Source of the DNA: a virus
Length of the DNA: 48,694 bases
IMG/VR virus record: IMGVR_UViG_3300044712_000766
Span: 1-48,694 of that record
Direction: 5' to 3' (one strand)
Under the pieces are notes generated by a model, which was not told the origin of the DNA, did no database searches, and saw nothing but the letters and a program-made list of their open reading frames with translations. Made by a program: the position numbers and the translations under genes. Positions 4,240-33,067 of the stretch are shown here, piece by piece; within the stretch, counting starts at the first letter, position 1, and each line of letters opens with the position of its first letter.

Positions 4240-4250
4240 CCTAGCTTGCC
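4240..4250 (-). promoter_or_regulatory. Late-gene upstream element (GGCAAGCTAGG)
   Basis: Minus-strand copy of the repeated element, 18 bases before the ATG at 4221. Confidence 0.5.
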
Positions 4251-4303
4251 CATCCGCAACATGGGCTAACATACGGCCATAACGCTGCCGTGATAACGTC
4301 GGG

Positions 4304-4636
4304 ATGGCCTGCCGCGATGTCATCGACTCCCGCGTGGACGAAGTCATGGCAGCTCTTGCCATTGGCAAAAACCGCAATACCACCGCGCTCGTCAGAAAGC
4401 TGTCGGACAAGTGGGGGGTCTCCACTCGCCAGGTTGAGCGCTATTTGAGAGTGGCCCGCGCTCGCCTGCGCCGCTCTTGGGATGAGCAAGGCCCCGATAT
4501 GGCCGCTCTTGTCTTTGAGGCATACACAGACCTCTATCGGCACTCCATGGAAAACACCAAGGAGCCGCACCAGATCCAGAACGCCCGCGCCATCCTTGAC
4601 CGTATGACGGCACTTGCTGGCCTCACGGGCACCTGA
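4304..4636 (+). CDS. terS: Terminase small subunit
   Basis: A 110-residue protein directly upstream of the large subunit and overlapping it by one base (TGATG). The N-terminal half carries a helix-turn-helix-like segment (TALVRKLSDKWGVSTRQVERYL, within residues 27-48) followed by basic ARARLRRSW, as in small terminases that recognise the packaging site. The C-terminal helix (QIQNARAILDRMTAL) fits an oligomerisation segment. The assignment rests on size, the helix-turn-helix and gene order. Confidence 0.8.
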   Translation: MACRDVIDSRVDEVMAALAIGKNRNTTALVRKLSDKWGVSTRQVERYLRVARARLRRSWDEQGPDMAALVFEAYTDLYRHSMENTKEPHQIQNARAILDRMTALAGLTGT

Positions 4637-5997
4637 TGGGGATCCTCAGCAAGCGGGAGGGTTCCATCCTTGTTCGCCCGGGTGATTCTGGCGGCCCCAC
4701 CTACCAGGGCACCCGCGAGGAGCTGCTGGCCAAGATGCGTGACCGTCTCCACGGCGGGCAGAAAGACCTCTTTGACGACGACGATTCCGACGAGATCGGC
4801 GTAGTCGCAGGCTACGGCTCGGGCAAGACCACGGCCGACTGCTACAAGGCCATTAAGCTGTGCCTCCTGAACCCTGGCTGCGTCGGTGGCGTGCTGGAGC
4901 CCACCAACAGCATGGTGGATGAAATCTGGCTGCCCAAGTTCGAGGAGGTCATGGAGAGCCTCGGCATCCCCTACGACTTCTACCGGGGCCGCAACACCCC
5001 TCAGCACACCCTCCACCTGCCCGGTGGCGTGACTTCGGTGGTGGTGGCCCGGTCCTTTGAGAACTACCGCCGCATCGTCGGCATGGACTGGGCATGGGCC
5101 ATCGGGGATGAGGTGGACACCGTGAAGACCGCCGAAGCGTTCAAGGCATACAAGAAGATCCTGGGCCGGATCAGGGCCGGGCAGGTGCGGCAGAAGATCA
5201 TGACCAGCACGCCGGAGGGCTTTGGCTTTCATTACCAGATGTTCGGTAGCGATGAGGCGGCTGCTGTCCCTGGGCGCCGGCTGATCAGGATGCGGTCGGA
5301 CGACAACCCGCACCTGCCGGCGGACTACTTCGAGCAGATGGAGCGGAACTACACCGCCGAGGAGCTGCGGGCATACCGGGATGGCGTCTACCAGAACCTG
5401 CTGACCGGCAGCGTCTGGTATAAGTTCGATCGCGCCAAGCACGTCAGGCCGGTGGAGTTTGACCCCACCGATGGCGAGACGCTGATCCTTGGCTGCGACT
5501 TCAACATCGGCAACACCAACGGCATCGTCATGGTCAAGCGGGGGCCGGTCATGCTGACCATTGACGAGATCCGCACGCACGACACCGAGCAGTTGTGCCA
5601 GGAGGTGCGCCGCCGCTACCCCCATGCCACCATCCACGGCTACCCGGATGCCTCAGGGGCTAACAGGAGCACCAACAGCACCCGCAGCGACACGAACATC
5701 CTCGCGGAGTACGGGATTGGCAACTACAGCCCCAAGGCGAACCCCCCTGTAAGGGATCGTGTGGCGGTGGGCAATAGCAGGCTTGAGAACGGCAAGGGCG
5801 AGGTCAACATCGTGATCGACCCACGCTGTAAGGGGCTGATCCAGGACCTGGAGCGCCAGTGCTACGACGAGAAGGGCGAGCCGGACAAGACGAACGGGAA
5901 CGATCACCGGCCCGAGGCATGGAGCTACCCGCTGCATCGGATCTTCTCGGCGGGCAAGCCGCTGGCGGGGCCGGTGCGCTCGGTTAGGGTGTACTGA
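4636..5997 (+). CDS. terL: Terminase large subunit
   Basis: A 453-residue packaging motor. Walker A AGYGSGKT is at residues 58-65, Walker B WAIGDEVD at about 154-161, and a coupling motif TSTPEG at about 190. The C-terminal RNaseH-like nuclease has acidic residues in GCDFNIG (D288), GYPDASG (D338) and a third D/H cluster near 424. It would dock on the portal and pump DNA while cutting concatemers. The last eight residues, PVRSVRVY, recur at the end of the next gene. Confidence 0.95.
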   Translation: MGILSKREGSILVRPGDSGGPTYQGTREELLAKMRDRLHGGQKDLFDDDDSDEIGVVAGYGSGKTTADCYKAIKLCLLNPGCVGGVLEPTNSMVDEIWLPKFEEVMESLGIPYDFYRGRNTPQHTLHLPGGVTSVVVARSFENYRRIVGMDWAWAIGDEVDTVKTAEAFKAYKKILGRIRAGQVRQKIMTSTPEGFGFHYQMFGSDEAAAVPGRRLIRMRSDDNPHLPADYFEQMERNYTAEELRAYRDGVYQNLLTGSVWYKFDRAKHVRPVEFDPTDGETLILGCDFNIGNTNGIVMVKRGPVMLTIDEIRTHDTEQLCQEVRRRYPHATIHGYPDASGANRSTNSTRSDTNILAEYGIGNYSPKANPPVRDRVAVGNSRLENGKGEVNIVIDPRCKGLIQDLERQCYDEKGEPDKTNGNDHRPEAWSYPLHRIFSAGKPLAGPVRSVRVY

Positions 5998-6016
5998 GCA
6001 CCGTCACCCCTCAGCC

Positions 6017-6253
6017 ATGGGTTACGACGTCTGGGATCCGAAGCAGCGCAACGCGGCCACCGTGCGGCAGTTGCAAGACCTCATTGATCTAATCAACTCA
6101 GGTCGTTGGCAGGTGCTGGAAGCGGAAGGTGAGACCAGCGTTCATGACCTAGAGCCAACCAGCGTGCTCGGTGCCAACAAGCGCTTGACTGTGAGCGTCA
6201 GGGTGGAGATGGCGCCAAAAGCTGAGCCGGTGCGCTCGGTCCGCGTCTACTAG
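6017..6253 (+). CDS. Small hypothetical protein sharing the TerL C-terminal tail
   Basis: A 78-residue protein (MGYDVWDPKQRN at the start) with a helical centre and ending PVRSVRVY, the same eight residues that end TerL. The 3' ends and the following leaders are also alike in DNA (5969-6021 against 6227-6287), including the run GCACCGTCACCCCTC before CC-ATGGG. This looks like a gene inserted or duplicated by recombination at a gene boundary. Function unknown. Confidence 0.75.
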   Translation: MGYDVWDPKQRNAATVRQLQDLIDLINSGRWQVLEAEGETSVHDLEPTSVLGANKRLTVSVRVEMAPKAEPVRSVRVY

Positions 6254-6281
6254 GATGGTCGGGCACCGTCACCCCTCGGCC

Positions 6282-6545: not shown

Positions 6546-6610
6546 CGGCCTCCGATGCCGTTGCCAACCTGCAGCGGTGGTAGCCTGCTGCTGTGCTCCG
6601 CACCTGGCCC

Positions 6611-7003
6611 ATGGCCCAGTTCTTCGTCGGTGTGGAGGCAGCCCTTGCTGAGCTGCTGGAGCGCACCGACCGCATCGAAACCATCCTGGAGGATTCCGTG
6701 GCTTCATTTGAAATGGCCGTCGAGGCCCTGATCGACTACACCCGCAGCCTGAAGGAGGAGAACGCCCTCCTGAAGGCCGACGATGAGGCCGATGCTGCTG
6801 CCCTGGCGGCTGCTGAGGCGAAGGTGGCTGAGGCTGAGGCCGGCTTTGCTGCTGCCAAGGCCGAGCTTGCTGCCGATGGCGCCGAGGAGGACCGGCTCTT
6901 TGGGCTGATTCAGGAGGTGCTGCCCACCCCGCCTGTGGAGGAGGAGGAGCCTGTGGTTGGTGACCCCATCCCCGAGCCCCCGGCTGAGCCTGCTGCCGAG
7001 TGA
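6611..7003 (+). CDS. Coiled-coil protein with acidic Pro-rich tail
   Basis: A 130-residue protein. Residues 15-100 form a long Ala/Glu/Leu-rich coiled coil, followed by a tail rich in Pro and Glu (PPVEEEEPV and PEPPAEPAAE). The composition would fit a scaffold-like or spacer protein, but a second scaffold candidate exists at 10392. It overlaps the next gene by one base (TGATG). Function not assigned. Confidence 0.7.
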   Translation: MAQFFVGVEAALAELLERTDRIETILEDSVASFEMAVEALIDYTRSLKEENALLKADDEADAAALAAAEAKVAEAEAGFAAAKAELAADGAEEDRLFGLIQEVLPTPPVEEEEPVVGDPIPEPPAEPAAE

Positions 7004-7185
7004 TGGGGCGCCATTTCGTCAAGGTTGAGTCTTGGGGCGGATGGTTCGGCAACCTCTTCTGGTTGAACAGCGACACCATCCCCAACCACTACGTCCGTAC
7101 AGGCGACGTGGCAGTGTTCTGGGGTGGCTTCGAGTTTGGCCATGTGCCCTTCCCGAAGTACGAGATCCTGGCCGCTGCCGAGTGA
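7003..7185 (+). CDS. Small beta-rich protein
   Basis: A 60-residue protein starting MGRHFVKVESWGGW, with many aromatic residues and Gly-Trp turns. It is the last gene before a strong intrinsic terminator, so it closes the terminase transcription unit. No family is recognised. Confidence 0.65.
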   Translation: MGRHFVKVESWGGWFGNLFWLNSDTIPNHYVRTGDVAVFWGGFEFGHVPFPKYEILAAAE

Positions 7186-7231
7186 GGCGGATCCGCATCC
7201 GCTAGGGTGGGTGCGGAGGATGTTCCCCCAG

Positions 7232-7259
7232 GCCCCGTGTCCGCGCATGGGGCTTTTTT
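7232..7259 (+). terminator. Rho-independent terminator
   Basis: GCCCCGTG pairs with CATGGGGC (7232-7239 with 7246-7253, one G-T pair) around a six-base loop, followed by TTTTTT at 7254-7259. It ends the terminase-region transcript and separates it from the head module. Confidence 0.85.
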
Positions 7260-7322
7260 GTGCCATTACGCCCGTTTTACGAACACGTCTGAAAGCTGCG
7301 GATCTGTGTCCGAAAACGGCCC

Positions 7323-7332
7323 GGCAACCTAG
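7323..7332 (+). promoter_or_regulatory. Late-gene upstream element (GGCAACCTAG)
   Basis: Copy of the repeated element, 18 bases before the ATG at 7351. Confidence 0.5.
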
Positions 7333-7350
7333 ACCACTGAGCTAGTGCCC

Positions 7351-7509
7351 ATGGCCCGCCTCGTCGTCACCGGCCTCGGTCGCCGCCTCCCGATGCCCCG
7401 CAGCTTCGCCACGTTCCAGAAGGGGGCTTATGACGTGAAGATCAGCGGGAACGCGCCGGAGCGCATCGAGATCCAGTACGTCCCCGAGCCGGTGAAGGGC
7501 AATGGCTAG
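7351..7509 (+). CDS. Small hypothetical protein
   Basis: A 52-residue basic, strand-rich protein (MARLVVTGLGRRLPMPRSF at the start). It is preceded by the late-gene element and has G+C and codon use like its neighbours. No homologue comes to mind. Confidence 0.6.
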   Translation: MARLVVTGLGRRLPMPRSFATFQKGAYDVKISGNAPERIEIQYVPEPVKGNG

Positions 7510-7534
7510 GAACCAGGCGTCGAAAACTGAAATA

Positions 7535-7642
7535 GGGCCGTGCGGGACTTGAACCCGCCTCGTTGCTGCAGTGTTTTATGCTGAAGCCAAGTGCAACCCG
7601 TTGCCGGGACTCCCTACCGCTGGTCATTACGCCCACCGGCCC
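7535..7642 (-). ncRNA. tRNA-like element with intact acceptor and T arms but oversized core
   Basis: On the minus strand the ends pair as GGGCCG with CGGCCC (extending outward to TAGGGCCG/CGGCCCTA), and a perfect T arm, GCGGG-TTCAAGT-CCCGC, sits next to the 3' acceptor strand. T8 is present. The roughly 77 bases between the acceptor 5' strand and the T arm are too long for a normal tRNA and give no convincing D arm. They hold local stems (CCCG-GCAA-CGGG, and GTTGC with GCAAC). It could be a degenerate tRNA, an intron-bearing tRNA or a tRNA-mimicking RNA. Confidence 0.4.
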
Positions 7643-7656
7643 TACCTCATTGTGCC

Positions 7657-7884
7657 ATGAGCTTGCCTGAACTGCCTGAACCGGATCTCCTTGTTGACTG
7701 TGCCCAGTCCTTCGTCCAAGGTTGGACTCGCCACAAAGTGGCGGCTTACGGCGAGGAATGCGTCAAGGCAAAAACGGGTGAGTTTCGGGCGGTGCTGCAG
7801 GAGCTGCGCTTGCGACTTCATGCGTCTGGACGTAGGCCGGAAGAGTGCTATGAGATGAGCTTGATTGATGAGGCGTTGGCTTAG
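7657..7884 (+). CDS. Small hypothetical protein
   Basis: A 75-residue helical protein (MSLPELPEPDLLVDCAQSF at the start). The ATG at 7657 is preferred to an upstream in-frame start at 7591 that would overlap the tRNA-like element. It lies just before the portal gene. Function unknown. Confidence 0.65.
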   Translation: MSLPELPEPDLLVDCAQSFVQGWTRHKVAAYGEECVKAKTGEFRAVLQELRLRLHASGRRPEECYEMSLIDEALA

Positions 7885-7895
7885 CCGCTCGACTC

Positions 7896-7908
7896 GGCAA
7901 CCTAGGCC
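7896..7908 (+). promoter_or_regulatory. Late-gene upstream element (GGCAACCTAGGCC)
   Basis: Full-length copy directly abutting the portal ATG at 7909. Confidence 0.55.
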
Positions 7909-9447
7909 ATGACGTATTCCTACGGCACCGATAAAGCACGCCTCAACGCGCATCCCAGCACTGCCCGCACCCTTGAGGTCTGGCAGCCGGGGCAAGTGTG
8001 GGAGCGGATGGCCCCACGCTGGGAGCTTCCTGAGGCTTTGGCCGCTGGCACCATCTACCTGCAGCAGCAGGGTGAGCGGTGGCTGCCCAGGGAGCCCGAG
8101 GAGCAGGATGCCTCCTATGCCGTGCGTTTGGGCAACAGCATGTGCCCGCCGTACATGCTGCGGCTGGAGAACATGCTCGCTGGCCTGCTGTGCCGTCAGG
8201 CGATCCGGCTGGAGGACGTGCCAGATGTCATTCGTGAGCACATGTTCAACGTTGACTTACAGGGCAACGACTTGGACGCTTGGCTTTACGGCACGGCAAA
8301 GAAGATGATCCGTTACGGGCATATTGGCACGTTGGTAGATATGCCACGCGATGGCGAGGATGTAGACGCTCGCCCTTACTGGATCTCCTACACGCCTAGA
8401 GACATCCTTGGTTTTCAGCCTGCGATGGCAGGTGGCAGTCAGCGTATTGTTGAGCTTCGGTTACAAGAGGAGATCATTCTTCCTTACGACCCGTCTAACG
8501 GTTCAAGCACGGCACGCTATGGCGAGGAAGCGGCAACCCAGATCCGGGTGCTGCGGCCCGGCAGCTTTGAGCTATGGCGCAGCAAGGGCGGCAGAACGCT
8601 TGATTTCAACATGGTGGACTCTGGCCCCACCACCCTGCAGCAGATCCCCTTTGCCGTTGCGTATGCCAATCGCGTGGGGCTGCTCGAGAGCGTCCCGGCG
8701 CTGGAGGAGGTGGCATGGCTGAACTTGGCGGCCTACCGGCGGACCAGCGACCTGGCGAACCAGCTCCACATCGCGGCGGTGCCCCGTCAGTTCGTGTTCG
8801 GTCTGCCGGGTGAGACCGAAAGCATCACCGTTGGCCCCAGCTTCGCCACGGCGCTGCCGGTTGATGCTCGGGTGGAGTTCTCAGAACCTGCTGGTACTAG
8901 CTACCAGTACCAGTTCCAGCATCTGGAGCTGCTCGAGAAGCAGATCAAGGAGCTGGGCCTTGCCACCGTCCATGGTGAGAAGGCCGTGGCCGAGTCGGGC
9001 CAGAGCAAGGAGATCAGCCGCAGCCAAGGCGACGGCACCCTGATGAGCATCGCCCTACAACTGCAGGACATGATCGACTCTGCCCTCCGCTTCCATGGGG
9101 AGTATCTGGGCCTGGCGCCTGACGCTGTGGGCCGGTGCATGGTCAACACCGAGTTCACTGAGGTCACGCTGGATGCCACCGTGGGCAAGTTCCTCCACGA
9201 ACTGCGGACGGCTGGCGACATCACCCAGGAGACGATGCTGATCAGCCTCGCCGCACGCAAGGCGTTCTATGACGACTTCGACGTAGACCGCGAGCTTGAG
9301 GAGACCGCGCAGCAGCAGGCGGAGATGCAGGCGCAGCGGGAGGAGGAGCTGAAAATGATGATGGAGGCGCAGGGGCAGCCTGTTGCAAATGCCAAACCGC
9401 CTGCTGCGGCTGGGCAACCTAAGGCATCTCCCCAGCCCCCTGTTTAG
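7909..9447 (+). CDS. Portal protein, DUF4055 type
   Basis: A 512-residue protein matching the DUF4055 portal family in length, order and motifs: an N-terminal helical region (LRLENMLAGLL), a GHIGTLVDMP segment with RPYW, an aromatic RPYWISYTPRDILGF core, a central QIPFAVAYANR-GLLE stretch, then a long stem helix and a C-terminal coiled coil (EETAQQQAEMQAQREEELK). The dodecameric portal forms the DNA channel and docks terminase. It starts directly after a perfect late-gene element. Confidence 0.88.
   Translation: MTYSYGTDKARLNAHPSTARTLEVWQPGQVWERMAPRWELPEALAAGTIYLQQQGERWLPREPEEQDASYAVRLGNSMCPPYMLRLENMLAGLLCRQAIRLEDVPDVIREHMFNVDLQGNDLDAWLYGTAKKMIRYGHIGTLVDMPRDGEDVDARPYWISYTPRDILGFQPAMAGGSQRIVELRLQEEIILPYDPSNGSSTARYGEEAATQIRVLRPGSFELWRSKGGRTLDFNMVDSGPTTLQQIPFAVAYANRVGLLESVPALEEVAWLNLAAYRRTSDLANQLHIAAVPRQFVFGLPGETESITVGPSFATALPVDARVEFSEPAGTSYQYQFQHLELLEKQIKELGLATVHGEKAVAESGQSKEISRSQGDGTLMSIALQLQDMIDSALRFHGEYLGLAPDAVGRCMVNTEFTEVTLDATVGKFLHELRTAGDITQETMLISLAARKAFYDDFDVDRELEETAQQQAEMQAQREEELKMMMEAQGQPVANAKPPAAAGQPKASPQPPV
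9413..9425 (+). promoter_or_regulatory. Late-gene upstream element (GGCAACCTAAGGC)
   Basis: Lies inside the portal 3' end, 24 bases before the ATG at 9450. Confidence 0.5.
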
Positions 9448-9449
9448 TC

Positions 9450-9824
9450 ATGGCTCGCAACTACAAACGCGACGCACGCGGACGCTTCTCCAGTGGAGGT
9501 GGTGGCGGTTCGTCCGGCGGTGGTGGCAGGAAAGCTGCTGGGAGTGGCGCCAAGGCTGCGGCAACCAGAGCCGCCAACAAGGCTGTTACCGACAGGATCA
9601 ACGCCACTGGGCAGACAGGGCAAGGCGGACGACTTTTTAAGAAAACCGCCGCCAAGTTCAGCGGCACCAAGGCTACTCAGCGCAGCAGGGCGCAAGACCT
9701 GGCGCGGACTGACCGGAATGATCAAGTTTCAAGGTTCGGTAGCCGCAAGGGCACCGTCACCAAGAAAGGCAAAGTCAAGCGCACCCGTGATCAAATCCTG
9801 GCTTCTATGAATCGGGGAAAGTAG
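9450..9824 (+). CDS. Basic Gly-rich protein with RDARGRF N-terminal module; zero-frame product of a -1 frameshift pair
   Basis: A 124-residue protein opening MARNYKRDARGRFSSGGGGG, then a Lys/Arg/Ala-rich region. The opening module recurs in two other proteins of this genome (13067 and 17479). The gene ends CGG GGA AAG TAG: the heptamer GGGAAAG (9815-9821) touches the stop codon and is phased as G-GGA-AAG, the lambda G/GT slippery site. A -1 shift there would extend the protein to about 301 residues. A minor head protein is the likeliest role, given its place between portal and scaffold. Confidence 0.8.
   Translation: MARNYKRDARGRFSSGGGGGSSGGGGRKAAGSGAKAAATRAANKAVTDRINATGQTGQGGRLFKKTAAKFSGTKATQRSRAQDLARTDRNDQVSRFGSRKGTVTKKGKVKRTRDQILASMNRGK
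9815..9821 (+). promoter_or_regulatory. Putative -1 ribosomal frameshift site (GGGAAAG)
   Basis: GGGAAAG is in the zero frame as G-GGA-AAG and is followed at once by TAG. Downstream sequence is strongly GC-rich with the palindrome GGTCCCGGGACC (9829-9840), which may help stall ribosomes. The -1 frame is open from 9791 to 10354 and has no ATG, GTG or TTG before 10007. Confidence 0.7.
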
Positions 9825-10354: not shown

Positions 10355-10362
10355 GGGAGCGG

Positions 10363-10368: not shown

Positions 10369-10391
10369 GATGGCGTTGTAGTAACGCTGCC

Positions 10392-12671: not shown

Positions 12672-12824
12672 ATGGGGCTTACTGCTGCGAAGCGGTGGGC
12701 ACAGGTGCGGGCCGCTGGGGGGGAACCTCCGGCGGCTTTGCCGTCTGTGGAGCCTGCCAGAGAGGAGGGGCAACCTAAGGCACGCCGTGCCCGTAAACCA
12801 AAGGTGACCCGCGATGAAGATTGA
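12672..12824 (+). CDS. Small basic protein
   Basis: A 50-residue protein (MGLTAAKRWAQVRAAGG at the start) with a Pro/Glu middle and a very basic end (KARRARKPKVTRDED). It overlaps the next gene by 11 bases. The late-gene element GGCAACCTAAGGC lies inside its 3' half and serves the next start. Function unknown. Confidence 0.55.
   Translation: MGLTAAKRWAQVRAAGGEPPAALPSVEPAREEGQPKARRARKPKVTRDED
12769..12781 (+). promoter_or_regulatory. Late-gene upstream element (GGCAACCTAAGGC)
   Basis: Identical to the copy at 9413; 32 bases before the ATG at 12814, within the preceding small gene. Confidence 0.5.
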
Positions 12825-13062
12825 CGTTTTTGATCAGGGGTTCGAGCACATCAGCGATACGGCGGCGCACACGGGCAACTTCTGCCGGATCTATGCGCTG
12901 GCGACGGCGGTGATCTCCAGTGCCACCGTGAGAGGGCTGACGGCAGGCTCTAATGCGTTCACGAGTGTGCCGCTGCCTGCTGGTGCGTGGATTGATGGGC
13001 AGTTCAGCAGCATCACGCTGGCATCGGGCCGGGTGATCGCGTACCGGGCGGATAGGGGCTGA
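12814..13062 (+). CDS. Small beta-rich structural protein
   Basis: An 82-residue protein (MKIDVFDQGFEHISDTAAH at the start) with alternating strands and Gly turns and an end GRVIAYRADRG. It lies between decoration-like and minor capsid genes and is probably a virion component. No family is assigned. Confidence 0.65.
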   Translation: MKIDVFDQGFEHISDTAAHTGNFCRIYALATAVISSATVRGLTAGSNAFTSVPLPAGAWIDGQFSSITLASGRVIAYRADRG

Positions 13063-15000: not shown

Positions 15001-15572
15001 TGCCGACTGCGATTGTCGCCACTGCCGGTGATGCCACTGCCAACAGCTACATCACGGTGGCTGAGGGCGACACCTTTGCGGGCGACGTGCTCCCCACCCC
15101 GGCATGGTCTGCGGCCACCAGCGACAACAAGATCCGCGCCCTGCTGGCGGCCACGGCCCGCCTTGACGAACTGGAGTGGATCGGTGCTCAGGCTGCCACC
15201 ACACAGGCCCTCGCGTGGCCCCGGACGGGGGCGAAATGCGGGGAGAAGGACTACGCCAGCACTGTGATTCCTGCGGAGGTGAAGCGGGGCACCTTCGATC
15301 TGGCCAACCTGCTGCTGAGCGACATCACCACCGACCCCTTCAGCACCGTGGCGCAGGTGACGGGCGAGCTGGTGCCGGGGATCAGCAACCAGGCGCTGAA
15401 GTCGGTCAACCTTGGCAACGGCGCGTTGAGCCTCGATTTCAAGGATGCCAGTTCGGCCCCCAGCGTCCGCAATGCGCTGAACGTGCTTCCCTCGCTGGTC
15501 ACCCTGTTTGGGTGCCTGTGCCTGACCGCGCCTGTTTCCACGGTCCGGCGCATTGCGCTTTCCAGATCGTGA
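15000..15572 (+). CDS. Head-tail adaptor, DnaT-like/gp6-type
   Basis: A 190-residue protein starting MPTAIVATAGDATANSYITV. The NSYITVAEGDTFAGD opening, the central LLAATARLDELEWIGAQA helix and the WPRTGAKCG motif fit the DnaT-like head-tail connector family found after MuF genes. It would dock under the portal. A less regular C-terminus after residue 165 may be an added tail. Confidence 0.75.
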   Translation: MPTAIVATAGDATANSYITVAEGDTFAGDVLPTPAWSAATSDNKIRALLAATARLDELEWIGAQAATTQALAWPRTGAKCGEKDYASTVIPAEVKRGTFDLANLLLSDITTDPFSTVAQVTGELVPGISNQALKSVNLGNGALSLDFKDASSAPSVRNALNVLPSLVTLFGCLCLTAPVSTVRRIALSRS

Positions 15573-15575: not shown

Positions 15576-16154
15576 ATGGCCAGGAAGTGCCGTGATCAGC
15601 TCACTCTCCTGGTGCCGATGGGATTTGCGGAGGAGAAGATCCGCGCCGAGCCGCTGCTGGAGAAGCCTCTCACGCCTGAGGAGCGGCGCAGGATCGACAG
15701 GCTTTACAGGGAGAACCAAAGGCTGGTGTGGAAGTGCCAGCATGAAATGGCGTTGCTGTTTCCAAGCATCGGCCGGGAGCAGATCAACTCATGCGTTGAT
15801 GTTGGCTTCCTGAAGGCGGCCAGGGTGCATGACGCGGCGAAGGGGAAGCTCAGCACCCGGTTCTACGTGGATGCTCGAGGGGAGTGCACCCACTGGCTGC
15901 GCGCCCATGGGTACGGGGTGAGCGCACCGGGGAAGGTGCGGGAGCTGGGGGGGAAACTGCGGCAGTTGATGGGCCAGGGCCTGACGACGGAGCAGGCGCT
16001 GCGGGAGATCAATGCGCTGCGGAAGGTGCCGGCGACGCTCGAGGAGGCGAAGGATGCGCTGCTGGCCACGGCAGGCATCGCGCATGAGGTGAACAACTGG
16101 GAGGCGCACTACTGCCCTAGGCCGCAGCCGTGGGAGGTGGTGGAGGCCGGCTAG
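15576..16154 (+). CDS. Phage sigma factor-like protein (region 2 and part of region 3, no region 4)
   Basis: A 192-residue protein. Residues 45-113 match sigma70 region 2 as in group 3 factors of the SigF/SigB type: ENQRLVWKC, then CVDVGFLKAARVHDAAKGKL, STRFYVDARGEC and HWLRAHGYGV. Residues 117-150 (GKVRELGGKLRQLM onward) resemble region 3. Nothing after residue 155 looks like the region 4 helix-turn-helix. By analogy to T4 gp55, which also lacks a normal region 4, it could direct host RNA polymerase to late promoters by -10 contacts only. Homology is read by eye; the function is inferred. Confidence 0.7.
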   Translation: MARKCRDQLTLLVPMGFAEEKIRAEPLLEKPLTPEERRRIDRLYRENQRLVWKCQHEMALLFPSIGREQINSCVDVGFLKAARVHDAAKGKLSTRFYVDARGECTHWLRAHGYGVSAPGKVRELGGKLRQLMGQGLTTEQALREINALRKVPATLEEAKDALLATAGIAHEVNNWEAHYCPRPQPWEVVEAG

Positions 16155-16468
16155 GCGTCAACCCACCTGCCATTGCTCCAGACCTTAGGCAGATAGTCGT
16201 CGTCGGTCTCCGAAGTTTGGGCAAAAACGCAGCCAGGTTGAGACAAGGCAAGAGCTATTTCTTTCTTGTTGCCAGTAACGGCCCAGTAATTTCTGAGTTC
16301 GCGCAGGCTGCAAAACAACGCTTGGGCCGCTTTCGCTTGGCTTGTAGCTGCCACAACAGCTCGGCAATACGAGCGACCTGCAGCAGGGTTGTGAACCATG
16401 ATCCTTCCGCCCCACACCTTAAGAGGGCGCTGGCGTTTTGCTGTGGTGGCTTGATTCGTTTCGGCCAT
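16151..16468 (-). CDS. Conserved phage accessory protein (moron-like)
   Basis: A 105-residue protein of lower GC inserted in the opposite direction between the sigma-like gene and the tail tube gene. The pattern RAVVAATSQAKAAQALFCSL, then NYWAVTGNKKEIALALSQPGCVFAQ is, from memory, seen in many phage accessory proteins that replace one another between structural genes. The 3' end overlaps the sigma gene by four bases. The leader (16469-16501) shares 21 bases with the one at 18608. Confidence 0.7.
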   Translation of the reverse strand: MAETNQATTAKRQRPLKVWGGRIMVHNPAAGRSYCRAVVAATSQAKAAQALFCSLRELRNYWAVTGNKKEIALALSQPGCVFAQTSETDDDYLPKVWSNGRWVDA

Positions 16469-16480
16469 GGCTGTGGGGTG

Positions 16481-16501
16481 ATGGTGCGGATTCGCATCCT
16501 A
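16481..16501. promoter_or_regulatory. Shared divergent-promoter element containing TGCGGATTCGCA dyad
   Basis: A 21-base sequence identical to 18608-18628. In both places it lies between a minus-strand gene and a plus-strand tail gene. It contains the near-palindrome TGCGGATTCGCA and, on the minus strand, the leader run CCGCACCATC found before several early genes. Confidence 0.55.
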
Positions 16502-16505: not shown

Positions 16506-16517
16506 GGCAAGCTAGGC
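16506..16517 (+). promoter_or_regulatory. Late-gene upstream element (GGCAAGCTAGGC)
   Basis: 15 bases before the tail tube ATG at 16533, just downstream of the TGCGGATTCGCA element. Confidence 0.5.
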
Positions 16518-16532
16518 AAACGCGCTACGACC

Positions 16533-17276
16533 ATGCCTGCCGGCGAGTACCTGATTAACTTCGACCACGAGCTGTGGATTGCCAGGGGCACCACTGCTAG
16601 CGCCATCCCGACCAGCACCACGGGGCTCACCAAGGTCTTCAACCTGACCGACGCGAGCATGACCAGCACCAGCACGTCGGTCAACGTCCAGGACTACGAC
16701 AGCGACCCGACCAGCGCGAGGGAGGCCATCACCAGCGTGGCGAAGTCGATGCCTGTGGTGCTGAACCTGAGCCCTGGGGATCCGGCCTACCAGATCCTGA
16801 TGGAGTGTGCCGACCGGGCCACCGAGAACCTTGCTGTGCGTTATTTCCGCATCAGTGCAAGGGTGCCGGGTTCGACTGGGGCGGATCCCGAGATCAGGGC
16901 CGGCATCGCCACCGTGAGCGGCTTCAACGAGGGCCGGGCCGTGGCTGGGGTGGGCGCGATGACCTTCACCCTGACCGCGTTTGGCGGGAGCATCTGGTAT
17001 CCGCAGGGCGGCGCTGCGGCGACTGTGACCGTCACCAGCGGGGGTAGCGGGATGACCCCAGCGACCTACACGGCGGTTCCGTTCATCCCGGTGGGGATCG
17101 GTGGCCGGAACGTGGTGGGCACCGTTGTGGTGGCTGCTGGTGGCTCGGTGACTGCAGCGCCGACGATCACTGCCGGTGGCAACAACGTGCGGGTTGGGGA
17201 CATCTACACGGTGGCAGCGGCCAACGTGGGCACCACTGGCGTGATGCCGACCTTCACCGTTGCGACGGTGGCCTAA
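16533..17276 (+). CDS. Major tail (tube) protein
   Basis: A 247-residue protein starting MPAGEYLINFDHELWIARG. The N-terminal 145 residues have the tail tube pattern: TGLTKVFNLTDASMT, NVQDYDSD, and an EGRAVAGVGAMTFTLTAFG strand pair near residue 140. The C-terminal 90 residues (Gly/Thr/Val repeats such as VTVTSGGSG) look like a surface-exposed Ig-like or decorating domain. It polymerises into the tail tube. Confidence 0.82.
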   Translation: MPAGEYLINFDHELWIARGTTASAIPTSTTGLTKVFNLTDASMTSTSTSVNVQDYDSDPTSAREAITSVAKSMPVVLNLSPGDPAYQILMECADRATENLAVRYFRISARVPGSTGADPEIRAGIATVSGFNEGRAVAGVGAMTFTLTAFGGSIWYPQGGAAATVTVTSGGSGMTPATYTAVPFIPVGIGGRNVVGTVVVAAGGSVTAAPTITAGGNNVRVGDIYTVAAANVGTTGVMPTFTVATVA

Positions 17277-17479
17277 CGAGAAGGCTTGGGGATCCGGTAG
17301 GTCTTGGCACGCTTTTGCGTGCCCATGACTGCCATTCCTTCAGAGTCGCGCCCCTTGAACGTCATTTTGCTGGCATTTTTTGCTCGGGTTTGATTCTTGA
17401 ACTTCCGTTTTCCGCCACCGCCTGCGGAGGAGCCGCCGCCTCCAGCGAATCGTCCCCGTGCGTCTCGTCTTTGGGCCAT
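17273..17479 (-). CDS. Small RDARGRF-module protein, third copy
   Basis: A 68-residue basic protein opening MAQRRDARGRFAGGGGSS. The start at ATG 17479 aligns with the openings of the 9450 and 13067 proteins; an in-frame TTG lies six bases earlier. It is on the minus strand and its stop overlaps the tail tube stop by four bases. A late-gene element stands 18 bases upstream. Probably a small virion-associated protein. Confidence 0.7.
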   Translation of the reverse strand: MAQRRDARGRFAGGGGSSAGGGGKRKFKNQTRAKNASKMTFKGRDSEGMAVMGTQKRAKTYRIPKPSR

Positions 17480-17497: not shown

Positions 17498-17510
17498 GCC
17501 TTAGGTTGCC
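17498..17510 (-). promoter_or_regulatory. Late-gene upstream element, minus strand (GGCAACCTAAGGC)
   Basis: Same 13 bases as at 9413 and 12769; all three copies precede RDxRGRF-type or small basic head genes, here 18 bases before ATG 17479. Confidence 0.5.
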
Positions 17511-17941: not shown

Positions 17942-18331
17942 CTAGCTGTAGCGGATGATCCGCAGCTCGTCGCCCAGCACGTTGCGGAGGGTGCTGCCGA
18001 TGAGGCCGGTTTTGCCGAAGCTGCTGCCGATCTCGGAGACGACGCAGGGGTAGGCAGACTCGCCACCCCATGTGAGGGTGCCCCGGATGCCGCGCTTCAC
18101 CCTGGCGTCAACGGCGGAGGGGCTTACCGCGTAACCGGCCAGCACGTCGTTGTCCACGTTGACGCCTGGGAGGTCGTTGGGCTTGAAGGTGGAGCGCTTG
18201 AGGTAGAGCTGGACCGTCACGGTTTCGGTGGCCGGGGTGACGTTACCGGTGGCAGGATCTGTGACCGTGCCAACTGTAGGGACCGTGAAAACGGCCGTGG
18301 CATTGGCGATCCCGAGGAGTGCGCTGCTCAT
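17942..18331 (-). CDS. Head-tail joining protein candidate
   Basis: A 129-residue strand-rich protein (MSSALLGIANATAVFTVP at the start). The ATG at 18331 directly follows a late-gene element and is preferred to a GTG at 18349. It ends LGDELRIIRYS, three bases before the gp10-like start. Its place beside gp10 suggests a head-closure or neck role, but no clear family match is seen. Confidence 0.65.
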   Translation of the reverse strand: MSSALLGIANATAVFTVPTVGTVTDPATGNVTPATETVTVQLYLKRSTFKPNDLPGVNVDNDVLAGYAVSPSAVDARVKRGIRGTLTWGGESAYPCVVSEIGSSFGKTGLIGSTLRNVLGDELRIIRYS

Positions 18332-18344
18332 GCCATAGGTTGCC
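18332..18344 (-). promoter_or_regulatory. Late-gene upstream element, minus strand (GGCAACCTATGGC)
   Basis: Abuts the ATG at 18331; one base differs from the consensus. Confidence 0.5.
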
Positions 18345-18636: not shown

Positions 18637-18649
18637 GGCAAGCTAGGCC
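18637..18649 (+). promoter_or_regulatory. Late-gene upstream element (GGCAAGCTAGGCC)
   Basis: Abuts the tape measure ATG at 18650. Confidence 0.55.
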
Positions 18650-20485
18650 ATGGCGGAAACACTTGGCCAGGCGGTGCTAGAGGTTGGGGTCGATGACTCC
18701 AGGCTCCGCGCTGGGCTGGCAGGAGTTGAGGGTCAGGTCCGGCGGACCAGCAGTGTCATCGGTGAGCTGGGCGGGCTGATTGCGGGCATCGGCGCCATCA
18801 CGGCGTTCGGTGGGCTCATCAATGCCGCCAGCGAGCTGGAGAGCATCACCCGCCGGCTGGCGAACACGCTGGGCGATCAGGGGGCGCAGCAGGCGCTGGG
18901 CTTCACGCGGGAGCTGTCGGACCGGCTCGGGCTGAGCTTTACGGTGCTGTCGGATTCGTTTGCGGCCTTCACTGCGGCGGCCTCGGCGGCGAACATCCCG
19001 CTACAGGAGCAGCAGGGCCTGTTTGAGGCGGTGAGTACGTCCGCGCAGCGGCTGGGGCTGAGCAATGACGCCATCAACGGAAGCCTCCTTGCGCTGCAGC
19101 AGGTGGCGGCCAAGGGCACCGTGCAGATGGAGGAGCTGCGGGGGCAGCTCGGGGAACGGCTGCCTACGGCGTTCGCCGCCACAGCAAGGGGCCTTGGGAT
19201 CAGCAATAAGGAGCTGATCAAGCTGGTGGAGTCCGGCCAGCTCACGGCGGACCAGTTCTTCCCTGCGCTGACCAAGGGCCTGACAGAGCTGAATGGCAGC
19301 GGCCCGGCTGGGGTACCCACTGCGGCGCAGAACTTCGCCTCATTGCAAAACGTCCTCAGGACGTTGCAGGCCGACTTCGGCAAGGAGTTCCTGCCCGGCG
19401 TGGTGGCGGGCACCCAAAAGATCGCAGAGTTTTTGCAGGGATTCACAGCCAATCAACGGGCCGCCGACCTAAGCGGCGCCTTCGGCTTCGGCCCAAGGGA
19501 AGCGCAGCAGCTCGTTGGGCAGCTTGATTTTGTTGAGAAGAAGTTTGGCCTCACGCGGGAGCAATCAAAGAACATCGTCAGCGATGCGCTCAAGATCATC
19601 AGCGACTCCCGTGACGAGTTTGATCCCCTTCTTAACAGCTTTGGCCAGCTCACCCTTACCGGTGATGAGTACGTCAAAGTGCTGGGCCTCATTGAGGAAC
19701 GCAGTAAGTCGTTCACGGCTCCGGCCCGTGCTCTGCGGGATCTGGAGCAGCAGCAGATTGCAAACGCAAGGGCTGAACAGCAAGCGTCGGACCGCCGACT
19801 GGACACCCTCGACAAGATTAACGCCCGGCTGAAAACGGCGCGCAAAGAACTAGGCAGCCTTGACCCAAATAGTGCCGACGCACAGGCCAAGCGTGAGGAG
19901 ATCGCCAACCTTGAGACACAAGGCAAAAGTGTTGAGGAGCGGTCTAGGGCGATTCAGAAAGCTGTCGAGGATGCGGCCCGCAAATCCAAGGAGGTGGCGG
20001 ACAACTTCCAGAAGGCGGCGGATGCGGTGAAAACCACGGCTCAGAGCTTTGCCGAGACGGTGGCCAGCTCGCGGTTTGCCAGCGAGTCGGCCCAGCGCCA
20101 GGCCAGGGACACGCTGGAGCGCCGCGCTGCGGAGACTCTGAACTCTGGGGCCGTGAACCGTGACGCGGTGGCCCGTGAATTTGGGCTGCCCATCGCGCAG
20201 GCCGGGAGCCTGAGCATCGAGGGCGGTGGACAGTCCTTCCAGCGCAGCTTTACCAACCAAGTGGCGCCGCTGGATCTTCGCGGCTTGGGCCTTGACAAGC
20301 TGGCCGAGTTGGTGCAGCAGACAGCGCCGCTGGCCGATGGCGCCAAATCAATTCAGGAGAGCAACAGTGAGCTGGTTAAGGCCACCCAGGAGTTGACCGC
20401 AGCGCAGCGGGCAGCACTTGAGCGCGAGTCGAACCTCGCCATCACCGTGCCCGTAGGTGCCACGCGCAACGTGTACCTGCCATGA
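18650..20485 (+). CDS. Tail tape measure protein
   Basis: A 611-residue protein. The N-terminus (LGQAVLEVGVDDSRLRAGLAG) is typical of tape measures. Residues 60-230 match the conserved tape measure core (QALGFTRELSDRLGLSF, VQMEELRGQLGERLP, TADQFFPALTKGL). A long charged coiled coil follows around residues 360-470. At about 1.5 angstrom per residue the tail would be near 90 nm. The stop overlaps the next ATG (20482-20485). Confidence 0.9.
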   Translation: MAETLGQAVLEVGVDDSRLRAGLAGVEGQVRRTSSVIGELGGLIAGIGAITAFGGLINAASELESITRRLANTLGDQGAQQALGFTRELSDRLGLSFTVLSDSFAAFTAAASAANIPLQEQQGLFEAVSTSAQRLGLSNDAINGSLLALQQVAAKGTVQMEELRGQLGERLPTAFAATARGLGISNKELIKLVESGQLTADQFFPALTKGLTELNGSGPAGVPTAAQNFASLQNVLRTLQADFGKEFLPGVVAGTQKIAEFLQGFTANQRAADLSGAFGFGPREAQQLVGQLDFVEKKFGLTREQSKNIVSDALKIISDSRDEFDPLLNSFGQLTLTGDEYVKVLGLIEERSKSFTAPARALRDLEQQQIANARAEQQASDRRLDTLDKINARLKTARKELGSLDPNSADAQAKREEIANLETQGKSVEERSRAIQKAVEDAARKSKEVADNFQKAADAVKTTAQSFAETVASSRFASESAQRQARDTLERRAAETLNSGAVNRDAVAREFGLPIAQAGSLSIEGGGQSFQRSFTNQVAPLDLRGLGLDKLAELVQQTAPLADGAKSIQESNSELVKATQELTAAQRAALERESNLAITVPVGATRNVYLP

Positions 20486-24108: not shown

Positions 24109-24120
24109 AGCAACCTAGCC
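24109..24120 (+). promoter_or_regulatory. Late-gene upstream element (AGCAACCTAGCC), with a partial copy just before
   Basis: A near-consensus copy 16 bases before the ATG at 24137; CAACCTAGGC at 24097-24106 is a second, partial copy that contains the stop codon of the preceding gene. Confidence 0.45.
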
Positions 24121-24136
24121 CTATCGCCTGCTGACC

Positions 24137-24568
24137 ATGGCCCTCGTTACTGTCTATAACCACACCAGCCGGCTGATCCGCTCCGGCCTGGTGACTCCCT
24201 CCAGTACGTTGATCGTCAACCTTTACAGCGTGCTGCCGACCAATGCCACTGCCACCACTAAGGCGGGCGCAGAATCTGGCGCAACTCAGCTTTCTACTGC
24301 CAATGGTTACACGCGGGACACCAAGGCACTGACTGGCCTTGCCGTTGCGACGGTCACAACTAACGACGGCCGAATGACCTGCGACCAGATTCTGTGGACA
24401 GCCAGCGGCGGCAGCATCGCGGCAGACTTTGCCATGATCTACGTGGACAGCTTGACCGATGACCCCCCGCTCTACCGGTACGACTTCGAGGGGACGATCA
24501 CAGCGCCCAACGGTATCCCGTTCGTGATCGACTTTCCCAACGGCATCGACCTGTTGGAGCGTGTTTGA
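24137..24568 (+). CDS. Tail structural protein, paralogue of the next gene
   Basis: A 143-residue strand-rich protein (MALVTVYNHTSRLIRSGLV at the start). The segment STANGYTRDTKALTGL and the following strands correspond to PSANGYAAATGTITSG in the 24600 protein, so the two probably arose by duplication. Such small beta proteins downstream of hubs are common virion parts. Exact role unknown. Confidence 0.7.
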   Translation: MALVTVYNHTSRLIRSGLVTPSSTLIVNLYSVLPTNATATTKAGAESGATQLSTANGYTRDTKALTGLAVATVTTNDGRMTCDQILWTASGGSIAADFAMIYVDSLTDDPPLYRYDFEGTITAPNGIPFVIDFPNGIDLLERV

Positions 24569-24570: not shown

Positions 24571-24583
24571 GGCAAGCTAGGCC
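24571..24583 (+). promoter_or_regulatory. Late-gene upstream element (GGCAAGCTAGGCC)
   Basis: 16 bases before the GTG start at 24600, in a 31-base intergenic gap. Confidence 0.5.
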
Positions 24584-24599: not shown

Positions 24600-25013
24600 G
24601 TGGCCGAAACGATCAGCATCAGTCAGGCATGGCTGAAACGCAAGGCTGACCTTGCTTACGACGGCAGGGCCTATCGCGTGTTTCTGGCGAACAACAGCAC
24701 AGCAGGGCTGGACAACGAAGACACAGCCAGCGCCTGGCTGGCCGAGGAGCTGCCTAGTGCGAATGGCTACGCGGCAGCCACTGGGACGATCACCAGCGGC
24801 AGCGGCGCATGGAACGCAACGAACGGACGGTATGAGTTCCCGGCGATCGTGGCGACCTTCACTGCCACAGGGTCGGGTTTCGCCTACGACACAGTGGTGT
24901 TGAGGATCGGCACAGAAACGGCCATCGTCGGCACCCTCGTTGAGGATCCGGCCATCACATTGCTGGCAGGCCAAACGAAGTCCTATCGCATCGTGCTGGG
25001 TCAGGACGACTGA
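24600..25013 (+). CDS. Tail structural protein, paralogue of the previous gene
   Basis: A 137-residue protein with a GTG start (VAETISISQAWLKRKADL). The pattern of strands and the SANGY motif match the 24137 protein. The TGA overlaps the next ATG by one base. Probably a tail-tip component. Confidence 0.7.
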   Translation: MAETISISQAWLKRKADLAYDGRAYRVFLANNSTAGLDNEDTASAWLAEELPSANGYAAATGTITSGSGAWNATNGRYEFPAIVATFTATGSGFAYDTVVLRIGTETAIVGTLVEDPAITLLAGQTKSYRIVLGQDD

Positions 25014-26848: not shown

Positions 26849-27423
26849 CTCACGCGTACCCGGGCCAGTTTGACCGGGCGACGTTTAGGAAGGAGTTGCG
26901 GGCCGATGTGATCCGGGCGCTGCAGACACTGGCCAAGATCCGCCGGCAACAGGCGCATCTGGCGGAGGTGCCGATTGTGCGTGCCTGGGCCTCGTGGCTG
27001 AATGGCTACCGGAAGGAGGGCACCCCGCCGATCGAGATCGCAGAGCTGTATGCGTTCGGGGAGCCGAAGGCGGCAAGGATCAGTGCGGAGGTGGCAGCCG
27101 TTGTGATGGAGTTGCAGCACGAGCAGAAAGCCCACCCGCTGCTGCTGACGGTGTGGGATGACGTGACCAAGGCCGCGAGCGAGCACCAGAAGGTGCCGGA
27201 GGTGAGGGCCCTGCGGAGCGATGACCAGACGGTGTGGATCGTGGCGCCGAAGTGGGAGGGCGGGGCGTGCCGGGGCGGGCTTGTGGCGGTGGGGACGCAG
27301 GTGAGCGGTGAGGTGCTGGTGCGCGACATGGATCGCCCGCTGCTGACTTATCGGGTGGTGCTGCCGGAGCGTCAGGGCTGCGGGTGGGTGGCGACGGGGG
27401 AACTGCTGGCGGCGGCAACCTAG
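26788..27423 (+). CDS. Frameshift extension of the chaperone-like protein
   Basis: After the shift the product continues with AARGQGKREKTDWSAKFWEL and AHAYPGQFDRATFRKEL, a W/F-P-x-F arrangement like the C-terminal parts of tail assembly chaperones. The helical RALQTLAKIRRQQAHLAEVP segment and then a beta-rich domain (TVWIVAPKW, RPLLTYRVVLPER) follow. Independent initiation at TTG 26896 is possible but would leave conserved-looking residues untranslated. Confidence 0.7.
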   Translation, partial: AARGQGKREKTDWSAKFWELAHAYPGQFDRATFRKELRADVIRALQTLAKIRRQQAHLAEVPIVRAWASWLNGYRKEGTPPIEIAELYAFGEPKAARISAEVAAVVMELQHEQKAHPLLLTVWDDVTKAASEHQKVPEVRALRSDDQTVWIVAPKWEGGACRGGLVAVGTQVSGEVLVRDMDRPLLTYRVVLPERQGCGWVATGELLAAAT

Positions 27424-27426
27424 GCC
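27414..27426 (+). promoter_or_regulatory. Late-gene upstream element (GGCAACCTAGGCC)
   Basis: Identical to the copy before the portal gene. It contains the TAG stop of the preceding frame and abuts the ATG at 27427. Confidence 0.55.
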
Positions 27427-27918
27427 ATGAGCGCCCTCCTCGACCTCCGCACAACCCTCTCCAGCATCCTTGCTGCAGAGCTGGGCACCTACACGCTTGC
27501 CAACGGTTCCACCACCCCGGCGGTGCGTTGCTCCGGGCCTGATGAGACCCGTTACCCCGGCACCATCGTGCAGGGGCTTGAACTGGTCATCATCAAAGAC
27601 CCGAGGCTCATCCCTATCCGGCAATACCAACAGGAGCGGGTGCAGGTGGAGTGGACCGCCTTCCTCGTGGCATGGGGGGACCGGCCGTCTGGCATTGCGG
27701 CACAGCTTGTTGCAGATGCCATCCCCGGCTGTGATATCGAGCGCGTTGAGGTTCCGCAAGGGATCGGCCCGCAAGACCAGTACAGGCTGACCATTCGTGG
27801 CCTGTCTGCCCTGCCGCTGGATGCCCTTGTTCCTGCCACCTCCGGCGGGGACCAGCTCACGACTTTGGCCGGTGACGCGTTGGTGACGCTCGACGGCCGC
27901 TATCTGGTGACGATCTGA
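27427..27918 (+). CDS. Tail terminator/completion-like protein
   Basis: A 163-residue alpha/beta protein starting MSALLDLRTTLSSILAAELG, with a GLELVIIKDPRL strand, an RVQVEWTAFLVAW strand and a helix before DIERVEVPQG. This order resembles tail completion proteins of the gpU/minor tail family, although the position here is late in the tail module. It overlaps the next ATG by one base. The role is tentative. Confidence 0.6.
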   Translation: MSALLDLRTTLSSILAAELGTYTLANGSTTPAVRCSGPDETRYPGTIVQGLELVIIKDPRLIPIRQYQQERVQVEWTAFLVAWGDRPSGIAAQLVADAIPGCDIERVEVPQGIGPQDQYRLTIRGLSALPLDALVPATSGGDQLTTLAGDALVTLDGRYLVTI

Positions 27919-31189: not shown

Positions 31190-31193
31190 GGCC

Positions 31194-32963
31194 ATGACTG
31201 TCACCGCTTCTTTCAACGTCACGCGACTGCCCGAAGATGGCACCGCACGTTTCACCTGCACCTTCCGGCGCACGGGCGACATCTCCGCGCCGCTGACGAT
31301 CAACTATCGGGTGAGCGGCACCGCAACCGAAGGGACGGACTTTACTACGAAGGCGCTCAAGACGGCGACTTTCCCTGCTGGGCGCAACACCGTTGGAGTG
31401 ACGTTTGACCCCACGGCGGACGCCATGCTGGAGCCGGATGAAACCATCCGGGTGGATGTGGTCAGCTACGCCATCGGTGAGCCTGGGTTTGCCGTGGCCA
31501 CGATCACCAACGACGAACAGCCGCCGGCCCCTCCCCCGCCGCCTCCGCTGGCATTTGTCTACCTCTCCGATCGCAACCCATCAGGTGCCGTCAATGAGTG
31601 GGGGCCGTTCGAGCGGGACCGCGCCAACGGTGAGCAGGGCGTCAACGATGGCGGCCCGCTGCGGATCAATGGGACGACCTACAGCAAGGGGCTGGGCGTC
31701 CATGCTCCGTCAGCCCTGACTTATCAGCTCAACGGCCTCTACAGGCGGTTTCAGTGCGTTATTGGGCTGGATGACTACACGCCCGATGCCATGGGTTCAG
31801 TGATCTTCCGCGTGCTGGCCGATAACGTCGAACGCTTTGCCTCCGGTGCGATGACCGGATCGAGCCCCGCACAAACGATCGACCTGGACATCAGTGGCGT
31901 TCAGACGCTGCAGCTTGTCGCAGACGCCAACGGCAGTCCTGCTTCGGATCATGCTGACTGGGCTGACGCCAGGTTGGCCTACCTTTCATCCAACCCCGTA
32001 CCGGCCATGCCTCCCTTCTACCTCGGCTCGACACCTGTAGTCCCCGCGATGCCCGGCGGGACGCCGCCGACGGAGCCCGAGCCTCCGGCACCACCCAGCA
32101 GCCTGGAGAACACTCGCGGCTGGCAGCTCACGCCGTCCATGGTGGGCCTGCAAGGTGCTGGCGTCACCACCGGGATGTTGACGCCGTACACCGGGCCGGA
32201 GGCAATCCCGCCGGGCACTTATACCCGAATGCTGTTCACCAACCCGTATCACACGGTGTACCTGGGCGAGACGACGTTCCGCGAGTGCCTGTTCCGGCCC
32301 ACCAGCTATAGCCCTGGGACGGGTGTCCTGACCGGCATCAACTGGCGCGGAGATTTCAGCCGCCAGCGCGGGCAGTGCACGATTGAAGATTGTGAGTTTG
32401 ACGGTTCGCTGATCGGCACGACGGAACAGATCGGCTTCTCTACGCCGCTGGTCTTGTGTGCAGTGATCCGGCGCTGCTACATCCACGACTGGGGCAGCGG
32501 CATCGCTTTCTACAACACCGGTAGGGATTTTAACTGCATTGCTGAGCATAACTACATCCATCGGATGGTGAGTAACAGCGCCAATCACGTCAGCTCCATG
32601 ACCATCCGTGATTTTCCCAACTCGCTGAACCCATCTCGGACGTGCCTCATCAAAGACAACTACAGCTACCTGGATACGACGAACGCATCATCTTCGATGT
32701 TCATTCAGACGCAGGTTGGTAATGTCAACAACGTGACCATTCAGGGCAACTACTTGCTTGGGCGTGGCTATAACCTGGTGCTGTCGCAGGATCTTAACCG
32801 CTTCCCTTACACATACTCAAACATTGTTGCGACAAACAACCGGTTTACACCGGAGTCCTTTGGGGCCGTCTCTATTGACGGCGGCGTTGGCTTCGCCGGC
32901 TTCACCAACAACTTTATCTATAGCGCGTCTGCGCCAGACAACAGGGGGGCGGCTGTGACGTGA
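31194..32963 (+). CDS. Receptor-binding protein: Calx-beta, NPCBM and beta-helix domains
   Basis: A 589-residue mosaic. Residues 1-95 form a Calx-beta-like domain (SGTATEGTDF, LEPDETIRVDV). A poly-proline linker follows. Residues 121-260 match the NPCBM/NEW2 sugar-binding module (GGPLRINGTTYSKGLGVHAP and the closing ADWADARL). After a second Pro-rich linker, residues 300-589 are a right-handed beta helix of pectate-lyase type (CTIEDCEFDG, NCIAEHNYIH, NNVTIQGNYL). It probably binds, and may cut, envelope polysaccharide. The start at 31194 follows CCCTAGGGCC. Confidence 0.82.
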   Translation: MTVTASFNVTRLPEDGTARFTCTFRRTGDISAPLTINYRVSGTATEGTDFTTKALKTATFPAGRNTVGVTFDPTADAMLEPDETIRVDVVSYAIGEPGFAVATITNDEQPPAPPPPPPLAFVYLSDRNPSGAVNEWGPFERDRANGEQGVNDGGPLRINGTTYSKGLGVHAPSALTYQLNGLYRRFQCVIGLDDYTPDAMGSVIFRVLADNVERFASGAMTGSSPAQTIDLDISGVQTLQLVADANGSPASDHADWADARLAYLSSNPVPAMPPFYLGSTPVVPAMPGGTPPTEPEPPAPPSSLENTRGWQLTPSMVGLQGAGVTTGMLTPYTGPEAIPPGTYTRMLFTNPYHTVYLGETTFRECLFRPTSYSPGTGVLTGINWRGDFSRQRGQCTIEDCEFDGSLIGTTEQIGFSTPLVLCAVIRRCYIHDWGSGIAFYNTGRDFNCIAEHNYIHRMVSNSANHVSSMTIRDFPNSLNPSRTCLIKDNYSYLDTTNASSSMFIQTQVGNVNNVTIQGNYLLGRGYNLVLSQDLNRFPYTYSNIVATNNRFTPESFGAVSIDGGVGFAGFTNNFIYSASAPDNRGAAVT

Positions 32964-33033
32964 CGAGTTTTCACCTACTGCCGCCGTATCGCCAGCCCTT
33001 GTGCGTTCAGCAGGTGGCACGTCGGATCGTGCG

Positions 33034-33042
33034 GGCAACCTA
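33034..33042 (+). promoter_or_regulatory. Late-gene upstream element core (GGCAACCTA)
   Basis: Core nine bases, 25 bases before the GTG at 33068. Confidence 0.4.
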
Positions 33043-33067
33043 TTTACAGAAAGCAACAAAGACTACA

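Follow-up and report, generated by a model that had tools for sequence, protein, structure and literature searches.

The virus record IMGVR_UViG_3300044712_000766 is a DNA of 48,694 nt, which was analysed over its whole length and is called the window here. Its presumed late genes are preceded, on both strands, by a 13-letter element, GGCAASCTARGSC, which is probably a late promoter read by the host RNA polymerase together with a phage sigma factor encoded at 15576-16154. The element itself is real. With at most one mismatch allowed, 11 copies were found in the window vs 0.81 expected from dinucleotide shuffles (standard deviation 0.85, largest count 3), and the reversed pattern, used as a control, gave a single match. 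When three mismatches were allowed the count was barely above chance (85 matches vs 65), and therefore only close copies were counted. All copies with at most one mismatch are located between 4.2 and 27.4 kb, each oriented with the next gene, and none was found in 33-48.7 kb or 0-2.6 kb. A first-pass annotation of this DNA had placed the element before at least a dozen late genes on both strands, oriented with them, 0-32 bases before their starts and with no full copy before early genes. The element, its orientation and its restriction to late genes were borne out. It was found to be infrequent within coding sequence and in the wrong orientation, and relatives have it at the starts of orthologous genes. 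An Rfam search returned no match.

Twelve window sites, one of them weak, lie at 0 (four sites), 14-18 (six), 24 and 32 nt from a start codon. Ten of the twelve have a counterpart at the same gene, some with two mismatches, in a near relative; two such relatives were read whole, G1 (IMGVR 3300042876_000267, ~83% nucleotide identity) and G2 (3300035670_000383, ~77%). Among the abutting copies, GGCAACCTAGGCC at 7896..7908 (+) touches the ATG of the portal gene (7909-9447), GGCAACCTATGGC at 18332..18344 (-) touches the ATG at 18331 of gene 18331..17942, and GGCAAGCTAGGCC at 18637..18649 (+) touches the ATG of the tape measure gene (18650-20485); these three genes are predicted to be leaderless. 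The fourth, GGCAACCTAGGCC at 27414..27426 (+), abuts the ATG of gene 27427-27918, and its TAG is the stop codon of the preceding gene. On the lysis side, GGCAAGCTAGGGG at 4238..4250 (-) stands 16 nt before gene 4221..4006 (71 aa) and is conserved in G1 and G2; a lysozyme/YkuD gene (4009..2834) follows downstream. GGCAACCTAGACC at 7323..7335 (+) stands 15 nt before gene 7351-7509 and is conserved in G1, with two mismatches in G2. GGCAAGCTAGGCA at 16506..16518 (+), 14 nt before gene 16533-17276, is conserved in both relatives, and GGCAAGCTAGGCC at 24571..24583 (+), 16 nt before the GTG start of gene 24600-25013, is invariant in them. GGCAACCTAAGGC is found three times, at 17498..17510 (-), 18 nt before the small gene 17479..17273; at 9413..9425 (+), inside the end of the portal gene and 24 nt before gene 9450-9824, whose product begins with MARNYKRDARGRF; and at 12769..12781 (+), 32 nt before gene 12814-13062, with a Shine-Dalgarno (SD)-like AAGGTG in the leader. 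The weak site is AGCAACCTAGCCC at 24109..24121 (+), 15 nt before gene 24137-24568. It is regarded as weak, as it has two mismatches and is missing at the orthologous start in both G1 and G2. The site at 33034 (GGCAACCTATTTA) was rejected, with four mismatches and a position within a conserved coding frame. Both sites had been on the first-pass list.

The element is not confined to the window and its two near relatives. A scan of IMG/VR for GGCAASCTAGGSCATG, in which no protein information was used, returned 68 stretches. More than 50 of these proved to be related virus contigs that share head and tail genes with the window (mostly 30-60% protein identity), and in them the element was found before the same genes as in the window. 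About a dozen stretches have no gene in common with it; they are probably chance matches of a short pattern in a large collection. Alignment of 33 sites from the window, G1 and G2 showed that conservation spans only -13 to +2, with nothing conserved upstream and no -35 box. The CAA.CTA core is invariant but for one C to T, and the base directly after the element is A in 27 sites and G in 5, which was also true where this base is not the A of a start codon.

In the combined set, 97 copies have a start codon within 45 nt; 45 of them stand at exactly 0 and 52 at 14-36 nt, and none at 1-13. The rule of 0 or at least 14 nt was first seen in contig copies other than the search match itself, and with the reversed-pattern control in those contigs only 2 of 11 matches were near a start. 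In orthologs of the portal gene (15, all at 0), of 17942-18331 (11, all at 0) and of 27427 the spacing is always 0, in tape measure orthologs it is 0 in 11 of 12, and in orthologs of 16533 it ranges from 14 to 19 nt. The putative +1 base of the 52 leadered copies is A in 37, G in 10 and C in 5. Start codons differ between the classes: ATG follows all 45 abutting copies, and GTG is used in 12 of the 52 leadered ones (Fisher p = 0.0003, uncorrected for descent or for the +1 A preference).

The spacing rule and the base after the element fit a -10-only promoter, with +1 just after it, and not a ribosome-binding signal. In the proposed mechanism, the promoter would occupy -13 to -1 with no need of a -35 box, and transcription would start at the purine, usually A, that follows. 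A start at the edge of the element would give either leaderless messages or leaders with room for a ribosome: where the +1 A is the A of the ATG the mRNA would be leaderless, and elsewhere the leader would be at least 14 nt. The first-pass annotation had held that an abutting element cannot be the promoter of that gene; this argument falls away if transcription begins at the base that directly follows the element. Recognition would be by the host RNA polymerase together with a 192-aa sigma factor, and early genes would rely on ordinary host-type -10 boxes. A scan for sigma-70 -35/-10 pairs found none in 1-20 kb and a single one in 20-40 kb, below the counts in shuffles. Tandem CTA half-copies ~13 nt after some elements were considered as a -10 box and rejected, since they are not conserved in G2.

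The candidate sigma factor is the 192-aa product of 15576..16154 (+), in which regions 2 and 3 were recognised but no region 4 was detected. A search of the window with Pfam Sigma70_r2 alone gave nothing, and the gene was recognised only via its ortholog in the element-bearing record G003, which was matched with E = 2.7e-8 in a Sigma70_r2 search of that whole record. In a family of 13, four of the ten orthologs tested scored above the curated Sigma70_r2 cut-off (best 8.4e-7), and all 13 matched PHROG_351, RNA polymerase sigma factor (window protein 1.5e-5); the PHROG matches of the family are general sigma families. A PDB profile search returned sigma factors almost exclusively (best 5.3e-7). 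The AlphaFold model of the protein is confident for residues 31-111 and moderate for 119-160 (mean pLDDT 71). The PDB structures nearest to it are those of sigma factors (SigE region 2 at 2.0 Å over 77 columns), and no match passes E 0.001. By its region 2 homology, in sequence and in the predicted structure, the 192-aa protein was assigned to the sigma-70 family. No region 4 match was found in ten members, and the protein ends ~30 residues after the region 3-like helices; the sole weak region 4 match of the window (42123-42194) is located in another gene. Acidic residues E68 and D75, in helix 67-84, are invariant among orthologs. A weak helix-turn-helix protein (41793-42203) was dropped as a late regulator, having what looks by eye like a hydrophobic, membrane-like N-terminal segment, and no more than a poor region 4-like match. 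Separately, element-bearing relatives were found to encode a tandem pair of full-length sigma factors (283 and 280 aa) in addition to the region 4-less sigma (L176 295-1146 and 1143-1985; G007 14.1-15.4 kb).

Sigma gene and element occur together. Orthologs of 15576-16154 were found only in element-bearing contigs, and among 23 loci with portal homology reaching at least 6 kb downstream, three had the sigma gene and multiple elements and 20 had neither. Whole-record searches found the ortholog in G006 and G008, and not in KBS-S-2A, MED4-184 or seven other marine-type relatives. It was not found in the element-bearing fragments G004, G005, G007 and G009, which are uninformative as their mapped parts stop short of the expected gene position. 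De novo word counts upstream of KBS-S-2A and MED4-184 genes gave no copy of the late element; KBS-S-2A has two one-mismatch copies, both within genes and none at a start, and MED4-184 has none. In marine relatives without the element, TAAACTGT was seen before the portal gene (L019 20494, L117 1301, L108 2343 and other marine portal loci), sometimes right after an intrinsic terminator, and is possibly the equivalent late promoter of these marine phages.

Several points weigh against the proposed explanation. The window 192-aa protein alone falls below the Pfam Sigma70_r2 cut-off. Its gene belongs to the late cluster and follows the 12769 element, a position that would permit positive feedback but does not account for its first expression. 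The zero-spacing class is inflated, because the contigs were found partly with a pattern containing ATG (the empty 1-13 nt class is not produced by the search pattern), and the copies are related by descent, so that the counts are not independent. Moreover, in the element-bearing G003, G007, G008 and G009 the element could be read by full-length sigma factors, which these records also encode; none was found in the window, G1 or G2. The element may then be a late promoter read by such a full-length phage sigma, by an activator with host sigma or by a modified host polymerase, with some other role for the 192-aa protein, whose pairing with the element rests on co-occurrence. This reading is unlikely, although it is the most serious alternative. 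Searches for a second sigma region 2 in the window, G1 and G2 gave none, and the element is missing from gene starts in those marine relatives that have a full-length sigma (KBS-S-2A, G010, G012).

The surroundings of the element also bear on whether it acts in DNA or in RNA. In one contig family (L026/L031), a strong hairpin with TTTTTT, a perfect terminator, ends 4 nt upstream of the element, and in G2 a terminator at 16195 stands directly before the counterpart of the window 7323 element. In the window, a terminator-like hairpin and T-run at 7230..7259 (+), the first in the list for 1-20 kb, ends ~65 nt upstream of the same element. Overall the enrichment is modest, with T-runs no more than 70 nt upstream of 5 out of 102 elements vs a 1.4% background. 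The gap between two divergent genes of G1, at 15463 and 15491, is 27 bp long and consists of two elements and one base only. For each of the two, the start must therefore come from its own element or from within the gene opposite. If instead a nuclease cut longer transcripts just 3' of the element, leaderless and short-leader mRNAs with a fixed 5' end and the same spacing rule would be expected as well. Such processing is improbable: terminators a few bases upstream leave little RNA for cutting, each element of the divergent pair would need antisense transcription through the neighbouring gene, and the linkage to a sigma gene would be left without reason.

A ribosome-binding signal is expected at a fixed distance of 5-10 nt from the start codon. 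The position of the element at start codons invites comparison with the start-associated sequences (SAS) of cluster K mycobacteriophages, 13-bp asymmetric repeats present in 11-19 copies, mostly in one orientation, which typically stand 3-7 nt before the start of non-structural genes and carry an SD core (PMC3203893). The window element is likewise 13-bp, asymmetric and located at gene starts. In contrast, its spacing of 0 or 14-36 nt, never 1-13, is the opposite of that of SAS, it precedes late structural genes, it was tested for an SD core and has none, and a purine follows it even far from the start codon. A translation-initiation signal, whether for the ribosome, a protein or a small RNA, is thus even less probable than processing. 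The first-pass annotation had considered a translation or processing signal as likely as a late promoter; the spacing gap, the +1 purine, the upstream terminators, the element-only divergent region and the linked sigma gene together favour the promoter. Its suggestion that the element replaces SD sites was partly true, as an SD-like 4-mer is present in 17 of 52 leaders. Finally, a repressor or elongation-block site of the L5 stoperator type (bound by the prophage repressor), or a recombination boundary marking gene cassettes, would suit copies that are dispersed, asymmetric, oriented and in several cases exactly at alignment breakpoints, but is hardly credible, as neither the spacing rule nor the +1 purine is predicted, the element is late-only, and cassettes of promoter and gene that move together would likewise place breakpoints at promoters.

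A late promoter read by a small phage sigma would have precedents. T4 late promoters consist of an AT-rich 8-bp TATA box at -10 with no -35, and are read by gp55, a small, divergent sigma factor that has region 2 but not region 4 (PMC2988020, PMC7892883). As in T4, many putative single-element late sites at the -10 position were found here on both strands, without a -35, along with a small sigma lacking region 4. E68 and D75 are reminiscent of the clamp-helix contacts E70, D74 and E77 of gp55 (PMC7892883). Unlike T4, the window element is G+C-rich and conserved to +1/+2, and leaderless starts are not reported as a late hallmark in the T4 texts consulted here. T4 also uses gp33 and a sliding clamp; no such partner was identified here, where no search for a clamp gene was made. 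Phage phiEco32 gp36 is likewise a sigma without region 4 which reads a single conserved element, tAATGTAtA, with the start 6-8 bp downstream (PMC8948821). The element sequences are unrelated, and phiEco32 has six mapped promoters and an enterobacterial host, compared to about a dozen predicted promoters in the window. Based on this shared anatomy, the window arrangement is proposed to work like those of T4 gp55 and phiEco32 gp36. In Deinococcus-Thermus, a -10 box next to the open reading frame gives leaderless mRNA (PMC12340547). There too a promoter element adjoins the start codon; theirs is the classical host -10 rather than a phage late element paired with a dedicated sigma.

The terminase, portal and major head protein of the window are nearest to those of cyanobacterial siphoviruses (KBS-S-2A, S-H1, MED4-184/117; 34-50% identity). 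From these relatives, and from one cyanobacterial bin which holds a related contig, we infer a cyanobacterial host. It is tentatively suggested that these viruses carry a new family of region 4-less late sigma factors and a fully predictable, G+C-rich late regulon, in which portal and tape measure are made from leaderless mRNAs. If so, late control would act at once on transcription and on the mode of translation, and promoter, sigma and target genes would form a complete and testable late-gene switch for an uncultured phage group. The rule of zero or at least 14 nt, never 1-13, would be a clean natural record of tolerated 5' leaders. Leaderless translation in cyanobacteria could usefully be studied on the portal and tape measure mRNAs, if these are leaderless as predicted. 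With the motif, relatives can moreover be found in metagenomes by their regulation rather than by protein similarity. A search of open-licence full texts found no description of this element, this sigma or the regulation of this group.

Alignment breakpoints between the window and G1 or G2 coincide with late elements at window 7896, 9406, 18344/18637 and 27414, and judging from the alignments, the borders of the element seem to be used in gene gain and loss. Small Gly/Arg-rich proteins with a MARNYKRDARGRF-like N-terminus recur, each behind its own late element (window 9450-9824 and 17273-17479 (-); G1 6876-7211 and 7239-7958), and the two in G1 stand in a row. These genes and their elements look like promoter-gene cassettes moving together. 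In G2, similar copies of the window 36.5-36.8 kb region are located at both record ends (1-850 and 44060-45769), representing either terminal redundancy or gene duplication.

The early part of the window encodes a serine-recombinase-type integrase, a Rad52-like protein and SSB. A different element, GCACC(A/G)TCACCC (GCACCATCACCCC), marks early genes; it stands 6-11 nt before early or non-late genes and has counterparts in G1 and G2. Copies were found on the plus strand at 5998-6010, 6263-6275, 38769-38781 and 41770-41782, and on the minus strand at 16475-16487, 36761-36773 and 44924-44936. Several follow a host-type -10 box (TACGAT, TAGGAT, TACTAT) by ~6-8 nt and others follow GCAACGG and a short hairpin, as if this second element were part of early mRNA leaders.

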